Shown piece after piece: positions 7,492 through 61,177 of a DNA stretch of 64,000 bases. Where the stretch lies: the NCBI GenBank assembly GCA_024399495.1, contig JAKSNY010000005.1, positions 1 through 64,000 of the forward strand, read 5' to 3'. Within the stretch, counting starts at the first letter, position 1. Each line of letters starts with the position of its first letter. The translations under genes and the position numbers were made by a program. This DNA comes from Paludibacteraceae bacterium. GTDB lineage: Bacteria > Bacteroidota > Bacteroidia > Bacteroidales > Paludibacteraceae. Below the pieces are notes generated by a model. It made no database searches. It was not told where the DNA came from and saw nothing but the letters and a program-made list of their open reading frames with translations.

Positions 7492-7503
7492 CAACACAAA
7501 AAA

Positions 7504-7531
7504 TTGAAAGTTGAAAATTGAAAGTTGAAAA
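7504..7531 (+). repeat. Heptamer array (TTGAAAG/TTGAAAA), 4 units, 28 nt
   Basis: Four 7-nt units alternate TTGAAAG and TTGAAAA and end 14 nt before the pheS ATG. The last unit contains an in-frame TTG (7525) that a gene caller can take as a start. It is the reverse complement of the CAACTTT family seen at 17133 and 28690. Confidence 0.85.
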
Positions 7532-7545
7532 TTATAAAAAAAATT

Positions 7546-15020: not shown

Positions 15021-15024
15021 AATA

Positions 15025-15052
15025 ATGTATGATGTATAATGTATGATGTATG
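15025..15052 (+). repeat. Heptamer array ATGTATG x4 before the S1 protein gene
   Basis: Four units, the second being ATGTATA. The array overlaps the first possible start codon (15043) of the next gene. Confidence 0.9.
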
Positions 15053-15063
15053 AGGGACAAGGT

Positions 15064-15897
15064 ATGCAAATAGGGAAGACTCAAATATTAAAAGTAAACC
15101 GACATGCTGAGGCAGGGGTGTATTTAGCGGATGCGAATGGCACTGAAATTTTATTGCCAAACAGGTATGTGCCTGAAATCTGCCATATAGGAGACACATT
15201 GGAGGTGTTTGTCTATACCGATGGAGAAGACCGCCCTATAGCCACTACCGTTAAGCCATTCGCAGAAATTGGGCAATTTGCGTTGATGACAGTCAAGCAA
15301 ATTACTGATTTTGGTGCGTTCCTTGATTGGGGTATTATGAAAGACCTGCTTGTTCCGTTCAGTGAACAGCGTGGAGACCTGAAAGAGGGCGACAAGGTGT
15401 TTGTATATGTGTATGAAGATGGTGTCACCCATAGGGTGTGTGCATCGGCAAGGTGGGAGAAATTCACTAACTCCGATGTAACCTCACTCAATGCTAAAGA
15501 CAAGGTCTCTCTAACGGTGGCTTCCAAAACGGAGTTAGGCTACAAGGTTGTAATAAACGGAGAGTTTAAGGGGCTGATATTCAGCAGCGATGTGTTTAAG
15601 CCACTGCATATAGGAGATAAGACAGAGGGGTACATAGAAAAGGTAAGGGAAGACGGTAAGGTTGATGTACGCCTAAAACAGAATGGATATGGAGCCATAA
15701 GTGCTGAGGCGGAAAAGATTTTGGATAAACTTAAGTCAGAAGGAGGCTTTATTCCTGTAACGGACAAGAGTGAACCTGAACTGATATACAGTCTTTTTGG
15801 CATCAGCAAAAAGACCTACAAAAAAGCAGTTGGAGACCTGTACAAACGTAGAATGATTGCCATACTATACAATGGAATAAAACTCCTACGAAGTTAA
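15064..15897 (+). CDS. S1 RNA-binding domain protein, CvfB-like
   Basis: 277 residues from MQIGKTQILKV. An in-frame ATG at 15043 lies inside the repeat array and would add 7 residues (MMYEGQG), so the later ATG is preferred. It has S1/OB-type repeats: VNRHAEAGVYLADANGTEILLPNRYVP near the start and MTVKQITDFGAFLDWGIMKDLLVPFSEQ around 80-107. A C-terminal winged-helix-like part follows (LIYSLFGISKKTYKKAVGDLYKRRMI). This order matches CvfB-type RNA-binding proteins. It is probably cytosolic and an RNA-level regulator. It sits in a run of translation and DNA-repair genes joined by short repeat linkers. Confidence 0.85.
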   Translation: MQIGKTQILKVNRHAEAGVYLADANGTEILLPNRYVPEICHIGDTLEVFVYTDGEDRPIATTVKPFAEIGQFALMTVKQITDFGAFLDWGIMKDLLVPFSEQRGDLKEGDKVFVYVYEDGVTHRVCASARWEKFTNSDVTSLNAKDKVSLTVASKTELGYKVVINGEFKGLIFSSDVFKPLHIGDKTEGYIEKVREDGKVDVRLKQNGYGAISAEAEKILDKLKSEGGFIPVTDKSEPELIYSLFGISKKTYKKAVGDLYKRRMIAILYNGIKLLRS

Positions 15898-15937: not shown

Positions 15938-17092
15938 ATGACGTACATCTCGTTATCTCAACTGAATATTGCTGTAGGCTCACTTATTGAGGGTGGGTTT
16001 GATGAGGAGTTGTGGATTGTGGCGGAGATAAACAGTATGCAGAACCGTGGGCACTGCTACTTGGAATTAGTGGAGAAATCAGATGTTACGGACACTATTG
16101 TAGCCAAAGCCACTGCCATTATTTGGCATAATGTATATGCAGGTTTGGCTGCAAAATTCGCAACTGCTACAGCCACTCCGTTGCGTACAGGAATAAATGT
16201 GCTTGTAAGGGTGCGTCCCACATTCCACCCACTTTATGGTTACTCTCTGAATATAACAGACATAGACCCCTCATACACTGCCGGCGATGTGGCAATGAGG
16301 CGGTCTGCAGTAATAAACAAACTTAAGAGTGAGGGTGTTTTTGACTGCAATAAGGAGTTGCAGGTTCCCACTGTGATAAAAAGAGTGGCGGTTATATCAT
16401 CATCGGGAGCGGCAGGGTATGGTGATTTTATAAATCAAATTACAAACAATCAGTATGGTTTTGCTTATAGCATAACGCTTTTTGAGGCTATAATGCAGGG
16501 AGACAGTGCTGAGGAGTCCATTATAAATGCGTTAGACAGTGCGGCAGAGCAGTCAGATAAGTTTGATGTGGTGACAATTATACGTGGCGGTGGTGCGGTG
16601 TCTGATTTAAGTTGCTATGATTCTTATAATTTAGCCTATCATATAACTCAATTTCCACTACCCGTAATTACAGGAATAGGGCATAATAGAGATGTATCTG
16701 TGGCAGATGAGGTTAGTTGTCTTAACCTAAAGACCCCTACGGCGGTGGCGGCTTACATAGTGGAGTGCAGTGTTGTTGCTGCTGAGAGACTCAATGTTTT
16801 GGCGGGAAACCTTGTAGAGTATGTAAAAGCCTACATTGCACAGCATAAGACAAAATTGGATGTAATGACGGCAGAGATTGGTAACAGTGCTTGCAGACTG
16901 ATAGAGAACCATAAACATAGGCTTGATATGGCACAGCAGTTGCTGGAACTGTCATCGCCGTTACATGTATTGCAAAAAGGTTACACAATGACCCTGAAAA
17001 ACGGCGTGCCTATAACAGCAACGGATATTAAAGCGGGCGATAGGATAGAGACAGTATTTAAAGATGGAAAGATTATATCAACTGTAAGTTGA
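15938..17092 (+). CDS. xseA: Exodeoxyribonuclease VII large subunit
   Basis: The catalytic subunit of ExoVII, which degrades single-stranded DNA to oligonucleotides. The 384 residues include an N-terminal OB-fold (about 1-105; GHCYLELVEKS) and the conserved core with RVAVISSSGAAGYGDF, TIIRGGGAVSDLSCYDSYNLA and PVITGIGHNRDVSVADEVS. A helical C-terminal region follows. It is slightly short for the family (about 400-450). xseB follows at 69 nt, separated by two different heptamer arrays. Confidence 0.95.
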   Translation: MTYISLSQLNIAVGSLIEGGFDEELWIVAEINSMQNRGHCYLELVEKSDVTDTIVAKATAIIWHNVYAGLAAKFATATATPLRTGINVLVRVRPTFHPLYGYSLNITDIDPSYTAGDVAMRRSAVINKLKSEGVFDCNKELQVPTVIKRVAVISSSGAAGYGDFINQITNNQYGFAYSITLFEAIMQGDSAEESIINALDSAAEQSDKFDVVTIIRGGGAVSDLSCYDSYNLAYHITQFPLPVITGIGHNRDVSVADEVSCLNLKTPTAVAAYIVECSVVAAERLNVLAGNLVEYVKAYIAQHKTKLDVMTAEIGNSACRLIENHKHRLDMAQQLLELSSPLHVLQKGYTMTLKNGVPITATDIKAGDRIETVFKDGKIISTVS

Positions 17093-17094
17093 TG

Positions 17095-17122
17095 ATGTAT
17101 AATGTATGATGTATGATGTATG
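17095..17122 (+). repeat. Heptamer array ATGTATG x4 between xseA and xseB
   Basis: One ATGTATA unit and three ATGTATG units start 2 nt after the xseA stop codon. The last ATG (17120) opens an in-frame extension into xseB that runs through the next array. Confidence 0.9.
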
Positions 17123-17132
17123 AAAAATTTTT

Positions 17133-17160
17133 CAACTTTCAACTTTCAACTTTCAACTAA
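17133..17160 (+). repeat. Heptamer array CAACTTT x4 before xseB
   Basis: Three CAACTTT units and one CAACTAA (28 nt) end 1 nt before the xseB ATG. Together with the preceding array it fills almost the whole xseA-xseB junction. Confidence 0.9.
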
Positions 17161-42230: not shown

Positions 42231-42300
42231 GAGTATAGGAGTAAAGGAGTATAGGAGTATAGGAGACTCCTGAACTCCTGAACTCCTAAACTCCTAAACT
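42231..42300 (+). repeat. Octamer array with inverted arm (GAGTATAG x4 / ACTCCTGA-ACTCCTAA x4) before lysS
   Basis: Four GAGTATAG-type units, a central GAG, then four ACTCCTGA/ACTCCTAA units. GGAG in the left arm can pair with CTCC in the right arm. The array starts on the base after the duplicated prfB stop and ends 9 nt before the lysS ATG. Confidence 0.85.
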
Positions 42301-46444: not shown

Positions 46445-46498
46445 AAGTAAAGGAGTATAGGAGACTCCTGAACTCCTAAACTCCTGAACTCCTAAACT
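46444..46498 (+). repeat. Octamer array between gpsA and pgi
   Basis: About two GAGTATAG-type units, GAG, then four ACTCCTGA/ACTCCTAA units. It starts at the gpsA stop and ends 8 nt before the pgi ATG; same layout as 42231-42300. Confidence 0.85.
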
Positions 46499-47993: not shown

Positions 47994-48071
47994 GGGCGTT
48001 TAGCTCAGCTGGTTTAGAGCATCTGCCTTACAAGCAGAGGGTCGGCGGTTCGAATCCGTCAACGCCCACCA
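47994..48071 (+). tRNA. tRNA-Val (anticodon UAC)
   Basis: A complete cloverleaf can be drawn. The acceptor is GGGCGTT/AACGCCC, the D-arm has TAGCTCAGCTGGTTTAGAGC, the anticodon stem TCTGC/GCAGA encloses loop CTTACAA with anticodon TAC, and the T-arm has GGTTCGAATCC. CCA is encoded (48069-48071). Confidence 0.95.
48053..48069 (+). repeat. tRNA-Val 3' end, first of three direct copies
   Basis: AATCCGTCAACGCCCAC occurs here, in full at 48311-48327, and as its first 13 nt at 48238-48250. Repeated tRNA 3' ends are a typical trace of integrase-mediated insertion. Confidence 0.8.
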
Positions 48072-52795: not shown

Positions 52796-52893
52796 GAGTT
52801 AAGGAGTAAAGGAGTTAAAAAACTCCCAAACTCCCAAACTCCTAAACTCCCAAACTCCTAAACTCCTAAATTTCTAAACTCCTAAATTCCTAA
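52796..52893 (+). repeat. Octamer array (ACTCCTAA/ACTCCCAA x9) after glutamine synthetase
   Basis: A GAG-type left arm (52796-52818), then nine octamers with some drift (ACTCCCAA, ACTCCTAA, ATTTCTAA, ATTCCTAA). It starts 4 nt after the stop and ends 3 nt before the next ATG. Longest array in the window. Confidence 0.85.
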
Positions 52894-52896
52894 ATT

Positions 52897-53916
52897 ATGA
52901 AACTTAAGTTTTTTATATTTCTTTCGCTCTGCACTTTTGTGCTTCCCATCGGGGCACAAGGCTATATGGCTACCAAAACCAGATTGGACTCTCTGAAGAT
53001 AAATAAATTTCACGGAGAGGCATCTTTGGGCGGCAAGGTGGAGCAGGCAAACAATTTTAAATTTGAACTAGATGCCGCATTTGAGGGAATGGTTCCTTTT
53101 AAAAGGCATAAACTTCGTTTTGCCACTAATGTCTCATTCAATTTTATAAATCAGTTGGATGATGGTAACAAAGGTTTCTTTTATGTTGCGGGTGATTTTT
53201 TTCAGTATGAAGTAAGAGATAAGATTACAGGAAATAAGGTTCTTGAAAACGGTGAGAGAAGTAAGAATTTGTTGTATTTCAGTGCGGTTAGCGGATGTCA
53301 ATACGATTTTTGCCGTGATTTGGCTGCAAGGGCATTCGGAGGTATGATGCTTACTTTCCAACCATTAAGAAAACACCCTCATTTATGTTTGGAGCCGTCT
53401 GTCGGTATAGTCGCTGACTTCCAATATTGGGATATATTAGACAAACCTGAACTAAAAGTATTGAAGGATTTATACAACAGTCAGCCGGCTTTGGTTAAAC
53501 ACTATTTTGAAATTAATAAAGAAGGATATGTATGGCAGATAGATCCAAGTTTTGCCGCCGCTGTGAATTTTATGGGTGAGTGGGATAAAGTGGCGTTTAA
53601 TCTGTATGTGCTTATGTTGCAGCCTTTTAGGGAGCCGTTTGACACTACAAAGGAATTGGAGGATGACATGAAGAAGTATTTCCCTGAATTTGTCGGACTG
53701 TTTAATACAAAACCTTTGCCTCAGGTAAGTGTTGATGCGTCGTTAGAGGTGGCAATCTGGAAGAGGCTTGCACTGGTGGTAGGGTGTGAGTTCCTTTGGG
53801 ACGGCGGTCAGTTGCCTTCTAAAAGACATGAAGTGGAGTATAATGGCAATAAATATACTTTGGGTGCCAGAAACATGAGGTATTGCTGCACCTTAGGGTT
53901 TAAGGTACATTGGTAA
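52897..53916 (+). CDS. Predicted outer-membrane beta-barrel protein of unknown function
   Basis: 339 residues with a signal peptide (MKLKFFIFLSLCTFVLPIGAQ). Alternating amphipathic strands (KFELDAAFEGMVPFKRHKLRFATNVSFNFINQ; VSVDASLEVAIWKRLALVVGCEFLW) and a C-terminal aromatic end (YCCTLGFKVHW) suggest a barrel. I recognise no named family. It follows glutamine synthetase through the octamer array and precedes the RluA gene by 6 nt, so it is probably in that operon. Confidence 0.65.
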   Translation: MKLKFFIFLSLCTFVLPIGAQGYMATKTRLDSLKINKFHGEASLGGKVEQANNFKFELDAAFEGMVPFKRHKLRFATNVSFNFINQLDDGNKGFFYVAGDFFQYEVRDKITGNKVLENGERSKNLLYFSAVSGCQYDFCRDLAARAFGGMMLTFQPLRKHPHLCLEPSVGIVADFQYWDILDKPELKVLKDLYNSQPALVKHYFEINKEGYVWQIDPSFAAAVNFMGEWDKVAFNLYVLMLQPFREPFDTTKELEDDMKKYFPEFVGLFNTKPLPQVSVDASLEVAIWKRLALVVGCEFLWDGGQLPSKRHEVEYNGNKYTLGARNMRYCCTLGFKVHW

Positions 53917-56512: not shown

Positions 56513-58291
56513 ATGAAAATTTGTATTGCGGAAAAGCCATCAGTGGCAAGAGAGATAGCGGCAGTCTTGGGGGCAACCCAAAGGCGTGACGGCTATATGG
56601 AGGGTAACGGTTACTGTGTAACGTGGACTTTCGGACATCTGTGTACACTTAAGGAGCCGCATGAGTACAATGAGCGTTGGAAAGGGTGGCGTATGAGTGA
56701 GATTCCCATGATACCCGATAAGTTTGGTATCAGGGTAATGGATGATGATGGGGTTCAGAAGCAGTTTAAGGTAATTGAAAAATTGTTTAATGAGGCTGAT
56801 GAAATTATAAACTGCGGTGATGCGGGGCAAGAGGGTGAGGTTATACAACGATGGGTAATGCAGTGTGCCAAATGTACCAAGCCTGTAAAGAGACTTTGGA
56901 TTTCATCACTTACAGAGGAGGCTATAAAAGAGGGGTTCAATAACCTTTATGACGCTTCCAAGTTTGACACTCTGTTTGCGGCAGGCTGTGCCAGAGCCAT
57001 TGGTGATTGGCTTCTTGGTATAAACGCAACACGCTTATATACAATAAAATACGGTAATGGTAAAGGGGTTTTGAGTGTGGGTAGGGTGCAGACTCCTACC
57101 CTTGCTCTTGTGGTAAAGAGGCAGAAGGAGATAGACAATTTTGTGCCACAGCCCTATTGGGAGCTGAAAACCGTTTATCGGGATACCACGTTCAGTGTAA
57201 AGCAGGGTAGGTTTGATAAAAAAGAGGACGCAGAAAAGGCTTTGCAGGATATTGAGGGTAAGGAGTTTGAGGTTACATCGGTGGAGAAGAAGAACGGTAA
57301 GGAACTTGCTCCACGCCTGTTTGACCTTACATCGCTGCAAGTGGAGTGCAACAAGCGGTTTGGCTACAGTGCAGAAAAAACTTTGCAGATAATACAAAGC
57401 CTCTATGAGAAGAAACTTGCCACATACCCAAGGGTGGATACCACATTTCTGCCAAGCGATGTGTATCCTAAAGTGCCTCAGATACTTGCAGGTCTTACAC
57501 CTTATAAGGCATTTACGGAGCCTCTTAAGGGTCAGAAACTACGCAAGGATTCCACTGTGTTTAACGATAAGAAAGTTACTGACCACCACGCCATTATACC
57601 TACAGGCAAGTTCTTTAATAATTTCACCCCCGATGAGAAGTGGGTGTATGACCTTATAGTCCGCAGGTTTATTGCCGTTTTCTACCCCGATTGTAAAGTG
57701 GCAAACACTGTGGTAGAGGGTAAGAGCGGCGATGTGGAGTTCAGAGTATCGGGTAAAGTGATACTGGAACCTGGTTGGAGAGTGCTGTTCCCTAACGATA
57801 AAAGCGATAAGAAAGACGATGAGGCTGATGTCTTACCTGTTTTTACAGAGGGTGAGAGTGGTTCTCATACACCATCATTGGCAGAGAAGATGACTCAGCC
57901 GCCTAAGTATTACTCTGAGGCAAGTTTGTTGCGTGCTATGGAGACTGCGGGCAAGACTGTAGATGATGAGGAATTGCGGGATTTAATGAAAGAGAACGGT
58001 ATAGGCAGACCATCTACACGTGCCGCTATAATAGAGACTCTATTTAAGAGAAACTACATAGTAAGGGATAAAAAACGCATTGTAGCCACCAAGACAGGCA
58101 TTGCCCTTATAGACACCATTGAGAATGAACTACTTAAAAGTGCAACCCTTACAGGTATTTGGGAAAAGAAGATGCGTGATATAGAGCATGGCAAATACTC
58201 TATGGAGACTTTTATGGGGGAACTTAAGGATATGGTGCGTGAGGTTTCTGCAGAAGTAAAGAATTCTAAGGGCAAAAAGATTGAAATTTAG
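56513..58291 (+). CDS. topB: DNA topoisomerase III (type IA)
   Basis: 592 residues. The toprim domain at the N-terminus has MKICIAEKPSVAREIAAVLGA, NCGDAGQEGEVIQRWV and GCARAIGDWLLGINATRLYT. The cleavage Tyr is Y305 in KKLATYPRVDTTFLPSD. The later RAMETAGKTVDDEEL and GIGRPSTRAAIIETLFKRNYI are typical. It lacks the C-terminal zinc-ribbon extensions found on many TopB homologues and ends in a charged tail (VKNSKGKKIEI). It decatenates DNA by single-strand passage. Confidence 0.95.
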   Translation: MKICIAEKPSVAREIAAVLGATQRRDGYMEGNGYCVTWTFGHLCTLKEPHEYNERWKGWRMSEIPMIPDKFGIRVMDDDGVQKQFKVIEKLFNEADEIINCGDAGQEGEVIQRWVMQCAKCTKPVKRLWISSLTEEAIKEGFNNLYDASKFDTLFAAGCARAIGDWLLGINATRLYTIKYGNGKGVLSVGRVQTPTLALVVKRQKEIDNFVPQPYWELKTVYRDTTFSVKQGRFDKKEDAEKALQDIEGKEFEVTSVEKKNGKELAPRLFDLTSLQVECNKRFGYSAEKTLQIIQSLYEKKLATYPRVDTTFLPSDVYPKVPQILAGLTPYKAFTEPLKGQKLRKDSTVFNDKKVTDHHAIIPTGKFFNNFTPDEKWVYDLIVRRFIAVFYPDCKVANTVVEGKSGDVEFRVSGKVILEPGWRVLFPNDKSDKKDDEADVLPVFTEGESGSHTPSLAEKMTQPPKYYSEASLLRAMETAGKTVDDEELRDLMKENGIGRPSTRAAIIETLFKRNYIVRDKKRIVATKTGIALIDTIENELLKSATLTGIWEKKMRDIEHGKYSMETFMGELKDMVREVSAEVKNSKGKKIEI

Positions 58292-58311
58292 AAAAATTTT
58301 AATTATTTTTG
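58281..58311 (+). promoter_or_regulatory. Promoter for the structured leader and pullulanase-like gene
   Basis: TTG (58281-58283), a 20-nt spacer and TATTTTTG (58304-58311). Transcription would start about 10-15 nt before the 18-bp closing stem. Confidence 0.6.
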
Positions 58312-58327
58312 TACTCTCCAATGGTTA

Positions 58328-58470
58328 GAGTTTATGTGTACCCATAACAAGTGCGTCCGCACCCACGCGGACGTATAGTGGGAGGGACCCATAGGCTTAC
58401 AGAGCCTTTATGGGAGGGCCGAATACCATCACAGATGGTATGAGTCACTTGGATGGGTACACATAAACTC
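58328..58470 (+). ncRNA. Candidate structured RNA or 5' leader with perfect 18-bp closing stem
   Basis: P1: 58328-58345 pairs perfectly over 18 bp with 58453-58470. P2: CAAGTG/CACTTG (58348-58353, 58446-58451). Inside are three hairpins. A is CGTCCGC/GCGGACG with a 6-nt loop (58354-58373). B is CCCATA-GGCT paired to AGCC-TT-TATGGG, with the TT bulged (58388-58414). C is ATACCATC/GATGGTAT with an ACA loop (58423-58441). The joining strands after A and around B's 3' side both contain TGGGAGGG. It lies after a promoter and 32 nt before the pullulanase-like start, with no terminator after P1. It could be a cis-regulatory leader or, because of the perfect terminal inverted repeat, a small mobile element. 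Confidence 0.6.
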
Positions 58471-58501: not shown

Positions 58502-61177
58502 ATGAAAAAATTATTCTTACTATTATCAGCGTTTGCGGCACTTCCGTTGTTTGCACAGTCTTTTACACCAGACCAGGTGAACCAATGTTATAGTGATTTT
58601 GGAGATAATGTCACCTTTATTTTTGATGAGGGTCTGTATGGGATGCAACCACAAAGGGTGTTTGTAACAGGAGAGTTCCGTGGTTGGGACGCTTCAACCA
58701 CCGATACTAAGTGGGATTTGAAAAAGGTTGGTAATCAGTGGGTTTTGTCGTTCGATAATACAGATGAGGCTGTAATAAAATCCAATTCACAATTCAAGTT
58801 CCGTACCGATGACGGTGATTGGATAGACCCGTGGAGTGGTGCTCCAAACCAAAAGAACGGTAATCTTGTATTCAAGCCACAGGCAGAGGTTTTCCAAATG
58901 AGGGCTGAACTGAAATTATCGGGTAATATATGGGCAGAGATAGGCGATGGCAGAACCACAAAAATAGAGGATTACAGGCTTACTGATGCTAAAGGTAAAG
59001 AGATAAAGATTGCCGGTGTTTTGCCAAACGGTGCCAAGACCACACTTATAACTCCGGCAGAGCCTATAGATATTAGGCGTGTATATTATCTTGAGTTCCT
59101 GCCACTTAAACAAAAGGCTTTCTGCTCATACGATGGCTGGTTCCGTGAGATTTACTCCACCAAGGAGTTGGGTGCCAATGTAGATGACGGCAAAACTGTA
59201 TTCCGTGTATTCGCTCCTCGTGCCACAAATGTGGTGCTTTATCTTTACAACGATAAGAATGACTCGATACCTACCATCGGGGAATACGAGATGGAAAAAG
59301 ATAACGATGGTGTATGGGAATTTAAGTTTGATAAGGATTTGGCAGGTGTATGGTATGATTTTACAGTACATGGCTTTAAAGACCCTGGAAACAGATTCTA
59401 TGAGACACACCCTGTCCATATAAATGACCCGTATGCACGTGTAAGTGACGATACATTTGGAAAGTGCCGTGTATGGCATCGTACAGTGCCTGCAACACCT
59501 CTTGCCAGTGGTATTCCTGCAATGCAAGACGTAATATCGTATGAGGTTCATGTACAGGACTTTACAGATAAACTACCATTACCAGACAGCCTAAAGGGAA
59601 CTATGAAGGGAATGATTACATCGGGTCTGAAAAACAAGAAAGGAGAGCCTATAGGATTTGATTATCTTGTGGATTTGGGAATAAACACCGTTCATTTGCA
59701 GCCTATGCAGGAGTACCTTCATATACCCGATGCAGAGTGGCAGGAGGCGTATCAGAATGACTCATTTATGATAGCCCAAGGCATTGCTAATGAGAACTAT
59801 CAGTGGGGTTACCGCACATCGTTTGCTATGGCTGTAGAGAGCCGTTACAGAGTAAAAGGTTCAGATAACGGTAGTGAGCGTGACCAATTCCGTGATTTGG
59901 TTCAGGCATTCCACGATAAAGGCATAGCCGTAATTATAGACCTTGTGCCTAATCATACGGCAGAGGATATGGAAGGTCATAATTGGAACTTTAACTTTAA
60001 TGGTTTTGACAAGCAGTATTACTACAGGACCAAGAATTTTGAGCATATAGGAGGTTACGGTAATGAGATTAAGACAGAGAACCGTCCTATGACACAGCGT
60101 TGGCTTATAGACCAATGTATGTACTTTATAAATGAGTTTGGTATAGACGGTTTCCGTATAGACCTTGCAGGTCAGATGGACCAGCAGACTCTTAAGACCC
60201 TGAAAGAGACCATAGGGTATGACAAGATACTTTACGGAGAGCCTTGGATTGGTTCCAATGACCCCGATTATGAGAATAACCCTGATTGGGATTGGTATAA
60301 GGAGGACGCTCCTATCTGCTATTTCCAAGATGAGAGCCGTAACGCCTACAAGGGTGCCACTTTTGACCTTAAAGACCCAAAAACAGACCGTGGATGGGCA
60401 GGCGGCAAGTTCTCTGAGAGAGCCAATGTTATGAAAGGTCTTACTTGCACTTACAAGGAGGACAAAAGCCCTTGCAGTGGCATAACCTATCTTGATATTC
60501 ATGATAATTTTGCACTTGCAGACCAATTTGGCGGTGCCGATTTTGACGGACGCACACACGTTGACCAGAAAGAGTATAAGATAGCCGCCACACTTATGTA
60601 CACCACACTTGGTCCTATTGTTTGCCATGGTGGTTCAGAGATTATGAGAAGTAAGGCTCATGCCCCGATGCAGGAGATTGTAAAACACTCTAAGAACTAC
60701 AATTTCTACTACCATGGTTATAGGGATTCTTATAACTGCCGTGAGGCTAACGATTATCAGTGGGAGCAGGTAGGGCAGAAGCCTACAAAGGAGAATAAGA
60801 ATGATTATGCTAATATGCTTGCATTCTGGAAGGGCTTGAACAAATTGCGTAATTCAGAATATGGTAAGGTGTTCCGTCAGGCAGAGGCGGTTCCAGAGGG
60901 GTACTATAAGTGGTATGCACCTGCTGATAATGAGAGCGTGTTAGGCTATATGGTGGATAACAAGGTTTTGGTGCTTATAAACGGAGGTGATTTTGGTTAT
61001 ACATTTAACGTTAAATTGCCTCAGGGTAATTGGAAACTTGTGGGAACCATAGATGAGATTAACTTAGAAGGTGTTAAATCAAAGAATAAGACAATAAAGG
61101 ATTTTTCCGAGACCGGAAGCGTAATGGTGGAAGGCAAAGGAATGTATATTTTCATCAATGCTCCAGATGAGCAGTGA
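58502..61177 (+). CDS. Secreted GH13 pullulanase-like glycoside hydrolase
   Basis: 891 residues with a signal peptide (MKKLFLLLSAFAALPLFAQ). An N-terminal carbohydrate-binding-like domain (VFVTGEFRGWDASTTDTKW) is followed by a CBM48-type domain (DGKTVFRVFAPRATNVVLYLY). The GH13 barrel follows with the type I pullulanase marks YEVHVQDFT, LGINTVHLQPMQEY and YQWGYRTSF. The catalytic regions are VIIDLVPNHTAEDM, GFRIDLAGQMD (nucleophile Asp), ILYGEPWIG (acid/base Glu) and YLDIHDNFA (third Asp). It should cleave alpha-1,6 branches of starch or pullulan outside the cytoplasm and would complement the amylase at 0.5-3 kb. It is preceded by the structured leader. Confidence 0.9.
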   Translation: MKKLFLLLSAFAALPLFAQSFTPDQVNQCYSDFGDNVTFIFDEGLYGMQPQRVFVTGEFRGWDASTTDTKWDLKKVGNQWVLSFDNTDEAVIKSNSQFKFRTDDGDWIDPWSGAPNQKNGNLVFKPQAEVFQMRAELKLSGNIWAEIGDGRTTKIEDYRLTDAKGKEIKIAGVLPNGAKTTLITPAEPIDIRRVYYLEFLPLKQKAFCSYDGWFREIYSTKELGANVDDGKTVFRVFAPRATNVVLYLYNDKNDSIPTIGEYEMEKDNDGVWEFKFDKDLAGVWYDFTVHGFKDPGNRFYETHPVHINDPYARVSDDTFGKCRVWHRTVPATPLASGIPAMQDVISYEVHVQDFTDKLPLPDSLKGTMKGMITSGLKNKKGEPIGFDYLVDLGINTVHLQPMQEYLHIPDAEWQEAYQNDSFMIAQGIANENYQWGYRTSFAMAVESRYRVKGSDNGSERDQFRDLVQAFHDKGIAVIIDLVPNHTAEDMEGHNWNFNFNGFDKQYYYRTKNFEHIGGYGNEIKTENRPMTQRWLIDQCMYFINEFGIDGFRIDLAGQMDQQTLKTLKETIGYDKILYGEPWIGSNDPDYENNPDWDWYKEDAPICYFQDESRNAYKGATFDLKDPKTDRGWAGGKFSERANVMKGLTCTYKEDKSPCSGITYLDIHDNFALADQFGGADFDGRTHVDQKEYKIAATLMYTTLGPIVCHGGSEIMRSKAHAPMQEIVKHSKNYNFYYHGYRDSYNCREANDYQWEQVGQKPTKENKNDYANMLAFWKGLNKLRNSEYGKVFRQAEAVPEGYYKWYAPADNESVLGYMVDNKVLVLINGGDFGYTFNVKLPQGNWKLVGTIDEINLEGVKSKNKTIKDFSETGSVMVEGKGMYIFINAPDEQ

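Follow-up and report, generated by a model that had tools for sequence, protein, structure and literature searches.

A dispersed, structured MITE-like repeat with a pseudoknotted core and changeable arms, probably selfish, upstream of a GH13 gene in Paludibacteraceae

To our knowledge, the way in which small dispersed repeats move is mostly unknown. REP and REPIN sequences, linked with the RAYT (Y1) transposase, are dispersed palindromes thought to move via folded single strands, and Rickettsia palindromic elements insert in frame. In the account given in PMC2229807, the latter measure 105-146 bp and form long stem-loops having terminal inverted repeats; ERIC (IRU) sequences of enterobacteria are about 127 bp, palindromic, dispersed and co-transcribed with their neighbours, and have a target duplication and TA ends; and YPAL (RU-2) elements of Yersinia are dispersed and structured, have known filled and empty sites, target positions near dyad symmetry, and induce target duplications of 3-26 bp. 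The STAXI motif contains a pseudoknot for which RNA and single-stranded DNA were both left open, and its copies are described as tandem and near DNA-handling genes (PMC2864571). Mobile-looking hairpin repeats are also described from mitochondria (RHE, GC clusters; PMC2800124, PMC4478555).

Here we describe a repeat found in a window of 64,000 nucleotides, the whole stretch of DNA analysed, that resembles each of these systems in some of the respects just listed. It differs from ERIC and YPAL in that no target duplication is seen, and it is further set apart from ERIC by description in that its arms vary between copies. Copies occur inside open frames, as in the Rickettsia elements, but here there is a pseudoknotted core, and near-identical cores can carry unrelated arms. 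Unlike REP/REPIN-RAYT systems, its six main carriers have no match to the Y1 transposase family; unlike STAXI it is not a tandem motif near DNA-handling genes, and it has no Rfam match. The mitochondrial elements differ in being organellar. No description of this element was recognised in open-access papers. The parts of the window copy and its host promoter element are as follows.

58304..58311, plus strand: -7 box TATTTTTG of the host, outside the repeat; TACTTTTG or TAATTTTG stands at the equivalent place in G010, G002 and G003
58328..58470, plus strand (core orientation plus): whole repeat copy; fold z -9.07; the covariance model matches the window here alone (137 bits, E 1.5e-36)
58328..58345, plus strand: left outer arm (P1), perfect 18-bp pairing with 58453-58470
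58349..58353, plus strand: inner stem P2, 5' strand AAGTG, paired with 58446-58450; two-sided changes at 5 of 5 family P2 pairs and 79.6% of cells paired, a value understated because one subfamily in alignment A1 is shifted by one column in P2
58354..58373, plus strand: hairpin H1, stem 58354-58360 with 58367-58373, loop ACCCAC; two-sided changes at 5 of 7 pairs
58362..58366, plus strand: pseudoknot strand 1, CCCAC, in the H1 loop; columns 40-44 with 56-60, 99.6% of cells paired
58378..58382, plus strand: pseudoknot strand 2, GTGGG; same columns 40-44 with 56-60
58380..58386, plus strand: first conserved GGGAGGG (alignment A1)
58388..58414, plus strand: hairpin H2, triloop ACA at 58399-58401; 98.9% of cells paired over both helices
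58412..58418, plus strand: second conserved GGGAGGG (alignment A1)
58420..58444, plus strand: hairpin H3, triloop ACA at 58431-58433; 97.5% of cells paired, two-sided changes at 8 of 9 pairs
58446..58450, plus strand: inner stem P2, 3' strand CACTT; covariation of P2 in the family
58453..58470, plus strand: right outer arm (P1), perfect 18-bp pairing with 58328-58345

The 143 nt of this copy fold with a minimum free energy of -72.5 kcal/mol, compared with -38.4 ± 3.8 kcal/mol for shuffled sequences, of which 0 of 200 were as good; the opposite strand, folded alone, gives a nearly equal z of -8.19. The closing helix, a second 6-bp helix (CAAGTG/CACTTG), three internal hairpins and a motif common to two joining strands (TGGGAGGG at 58379-58386 and 58411-58418), all reported in a preliminary description of this DNA, were recovered. 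That description overlooked the pseudoknot, in which CCCAC of the H1 loop can pair with GTGGG, and also the multicopy nature of the sequence, which BLAST of the window's genome brought out. Its remark that the structure matched no family it knew agrees with an Rfam scan of the window at gathering score, which returned only a tRNA at 47994-48068; a permissive scan of six loci gave chance-level matches only (best E 0.38, 23.3 bits against a cut-off of 80.4). By eye, tandem G-A pairs are possible near the base of H3.

The repeat is flanked by a topoisomerase gene at 56513-58291 and, at 58502-61177, by a gene that has CBM_48 and alpha-amylase domains, the latter being the starch-degrading gene that had been placed downstream, with its start at 58502. 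The promoter proposed just upstream is likewise present as TATTTTTG, which we take to be a -7 box of the Bacteroidetes type (consensus TAnnTTTG), and this box is a property of the host gene, not of the repeat. From this arrangement the preliminary description had taken the structure for a leader, riboswitch-like or protein-binding, serving the pullulanase-like gene, a reading that is contradicted by the distribution of copies, some of them antisense, and by the fate of the same site in related genomes.

A BLAST search of the window's genome yielded 22 matches, some being fragments that belong to one copy, and a covariance model built from 57 copies places the family at no fewer than 22 separate places in that genome, among unrelated genes and on both strands. 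By BLAST the family is present in 6 of 16 genomes of the genus, a number that the model raises to seven through G009, which has two diverged copies, and one short match was found in one of 45 further genomes searched. The carriers are related bacteria of the gut. Model searches recovered at least 7 of 150 genomes at the family level, all in this genus, and at least 4 of 393 at the order level, namely the window's own and three at lower score; strict filters were applied, with 22 and 8 candidates scored per genome, respectively, so that negatives are soft. The pattern GGGAGGGRCCCN{3,30}GGGAGGG occurs in 6 of the 393 order genomes, from six genera of Bacteroidales, with none for the reversed control among the matches listed; outside the window's genome 20 distant places were listed, upstream sequence is long enough for inspection in 14 of them, and 11 of the 14 carry an exact 5-base pseudoknot complement. 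With one genome per species, a strict pattern gave 40 stretches, 39 in metagenome-assembled genomes titled Paludibacteraceae or uncultured Bacteroidales and one in Streptomyces (L075), which was taken for chance and removed from the copy set.

A viral distribution of the family was considered and rejected: the strict pattern had 0 matches in the viral collection, and the loose pattern, with at least 120 stretches there, appeared by eye to catch mostly another G-rich repeat, the model giving a best E of 1.2e-4 (L224) and next 0.02 on the 80 loci listed. In several viral contigs (L195, L203, L214, L221, L225, L253) G-rich hairpin units containing GGGAGGGRCCC and GGGAGGG recur, some at intervals of about 1.2 kb or more, and these units may be related to the family. 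A different dispersed repeat, about 118 bp in length (L312:3244-3361, G000:C20), is missing at the same site in the sister genome G010 and matched elsewhere in it.

Copies were collected by regular expression in loci L001-L104, leaving 62 after removal of duplicates, copies at locus ends and the Streptomyces stretch. With neighbouring genes called by a simple open-frame rule, 58 of the 62 have a neighbour on both sides. For 50 of the 58 the flanking genes are co-directional and close by, with 30 copies in sense and 20 in antisense orientation. One copy with an extra insert (L060, G001:C27) sits inside a long open frame that by eye resembles a penicillin-binding protein. Second repeat-like inserts within the core (GAGCAGAA or GAGGGCAGAA and TATGCCGA) are found at similar places in several copies, after H1 in L008, L037 and L043 and near H3 in L028, L063 and L315:4547-4728. 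Short tandem arrays also occur in the window, most with units of 7 or 8 bp (7500-7533, 15022-15066, 17092-17158, 42231-42300, 46464-46498, 52820-52904), and similar GTTGAAA repeats flank some element copies.

The 57 aligned copies share one fold with three hairpins, ACA triloops (113 of 133 triloop hairpins counted) and a covarying pseudoknot. In alignment A1 (57 distinct rows, L002, L047, L058 and L061 trimmed by hand), 94.6% of 2039 cells pair and two-sided changes occur at 25 of 36 pairs, counts of covariation that are inflated because the copies are related and that refer to a structure drawn with the same sequences in view. Pairing, two-sided changes and covariation score were reached by 0 of 500 shuffles, and slid versions scored much less; further pair types are not unusual in number, since 131 of 500 shuffles have as many. 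The pseudoknot position that varies (columns 43-57) shows the pairs AU 23, GC 21, CG 12 and UA 1, with none broken. A conserved, covarying structure is borne out. Within the arms, wobble pairs are G-T in 31 cases versus A-C in 3 (23 versus 3 by distinct context, p 9e-5; an earlier count in a wider arm search gave 31 versus 5), and therefore one strand is selected to fold. This strand may be RNA or single-stranded DNA.

The window site was compared in related genomes. The core is forward in the window's genome (G000) and in G002, and reversed in G010; the window copy (L001) and the G010 copy (L009) are mutual closest cores at 96.7% identity, the next best being 91.2% and 93.3%. Mutual best cores at one site in opposite orientation favour an inversion in place. 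Of ten sites that are occupied in two or more genomes and have matching flanks on either side, five differ in orientation, and only the window site is firm as an inversion. The idea that these ten occupied sites, with their five differences in orientation, mark insertion hot spots was set aside, chance coincidence being possible. In G003 only a 21-bp palindrome is left beside the same -7 box. We rejected this as a clean empty site; it looks like a remnant because G010:C158 has the same outer palindrome with apparent arm pieces inside, and the pattern of this outer palindrome has a match in 2 of 16 genus genomes.

The outer arms behave differently from the core. Terminal inverted repeats with an arm score of at least 12 are present in 56 of 62 copies, and the arm-based counts take in 57 of the 62. 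Twelve pairs in the subfamily whose inner stem is TGAGG/CCGA have a core identity of 93% or more. In 8 of them the core identity is 93-100% and the arm identity 0.38-0.50 (shuffled arms 0.37 ± 0.10); one of these 8, L047/L051, has identical cores. Three of the 8 pairs involve L067 or L082, loci outside the flank comparison, and may be orthologous. The other 4 pairs are copies at one site, with arm identities of 0.93-1.00, and in the orthologous trio L024/L045/L046 at one site the arms are 100% identical and the cores 93.5-97.8%. Two other large subfamilies mostly share arms, with mean identities of 0.80 and 0.81. Some pairs of copies that occupy one site in two genomes differ in both arms and core (arm identity 0.38 for L017/L018, 0.31 for L057/L061 and 0.75 for L006/L015), and these are read as separate insertions, with change in place as a possible alternative. 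From these comparisons we infer that arms can be remade on movement or insertion.

Insertion into ready-made long palindromes was rejected as a source of the arms, with 0 perfect hairpins having arms of at least 12 (loop up to 40) in 155,804 bases and eight having arms of 11. Relatives lacking the element at a site were available for L003 (G010, G001, G012) and L035 (G003). No arm copy was present in these relatives, nor in the G012 relative of G001:C32:35546, which counts against target copying for those copies. For some others target copying is a possible arm source. Host sequence seems to form part of the palindrome in up to three cases: in a distant copy (L158, G515:C11) the right arm belongs to a 27-codon tandem repeat, with copy and repeat in one frame (1363-2877) that by eye resembles LpxB; at L067 the last residues of the gene resemble those of the G010 relative and an imperfect inverted copy of this gene end lies across the element, a match that barely exceeds the 95th percentile of mismatched pairs (20 versus 19); and at L013 hydrophobic residues continue into the arm from a gene end that looks by eye like AroE-AroK, in comparison with the element-free G012. 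In 7 of 57 copies, of which four belong to a single subfamily, the palindrome continues beyond the arms to an extent above the 99th percentile of mismatched pairs. Over the 57 copies, target-site duplication was not above chance (mean 2.11 observed, 2.31 in mismatched flanks).

A leader dedicated to the GH13 gene, whether riboswitch-like or protein-binding, would fit the position between promoter and start codon and the complex conserved fold, but copies stand at unrelated genes, some antisense, and at the window site G010 has an inverted core and G003, with the same -7 box, has lost the core. With the core fold kept and the outer arms differing between scattered copies, the structure is therefore probably not a switch for this gene; we regard such a leader as extremely improbable, and the window feature is a copy of a repeat that is probably mobile, lying here in what would be the GH13 gene's 5' untranslated region. 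Conservation of the fold, together with the short distances between co-directional genes at 50 of 58 copies, would also suit an element domesticated by the host to influence mRNA stability or expression among the genes of an operon, with an ERIC-like effect. The nearly even split of sense and antisense copies, the inversion and loss at the same site and the patchy presence in the genus (6/16) all speak against such a role, which we think improbable.

That scattered copies with target-site duplications, as in a MITE, would undermine the leader was anticipated in the preliminary description; the scatter was found and the duplications were not. An ordinary MITE, that is, a deleted insertion sequence whose arms are terminal inverted repeats and which is moved in trans by a DDE transposase, would account for terminal inverted repeats common within two subfamilies, for intergenic copies and for their absence in relatives. 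However, duplications at chance level and near-identical cores with unrelated arms are at odds with it, and a covarying pseudoknotted core would be superfluous for such a mechanism; we consider it rather unlikely. The element is of the broad kind of small dispersed palindromic repeats, the classical marks of a MITE being absent or only partly present and its anatomy unusual. The reading that we judge likely is a single copy of a dispersed, non-autonomous repeat, structured, MITE-like and probably selfish, whose core is recognised single-stranded and whose arms are rebuilt at insertion. An enzyme would recognise and move the core in its folded state, as single-stranded RNA or DNA, and the near-perfect arms would form afresh at insertion, possibly through fold-back priming that starts at the inner stem P2 and copies flanking DNA. 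The arms would then allow the core to flip in place, and deletion could leave small palindromic remnants. As to the mover, Y1 transposase (PF01797) was found in 2 of 16 genus genomes (G005 and G009) and in 0 of the 6 main carriers, the draft genomes being 78-96% complete.

We tentatively suggest, as a possibility we hold to be rather doubtful, that the family represents a new class of bacterial mobile element, with a pseudoknotted single-stranded core without fixed ends and arms built for each insertion by fold-back copying of the flanks. The case also carries a caution, in that what strikes the eye as a structured leader can turn out to be a repeat that has transposed. If the proposed mechanism is true, it would mean movement without fixed terminal repeats, an idea that filled and empty sites in close relatives make testable.
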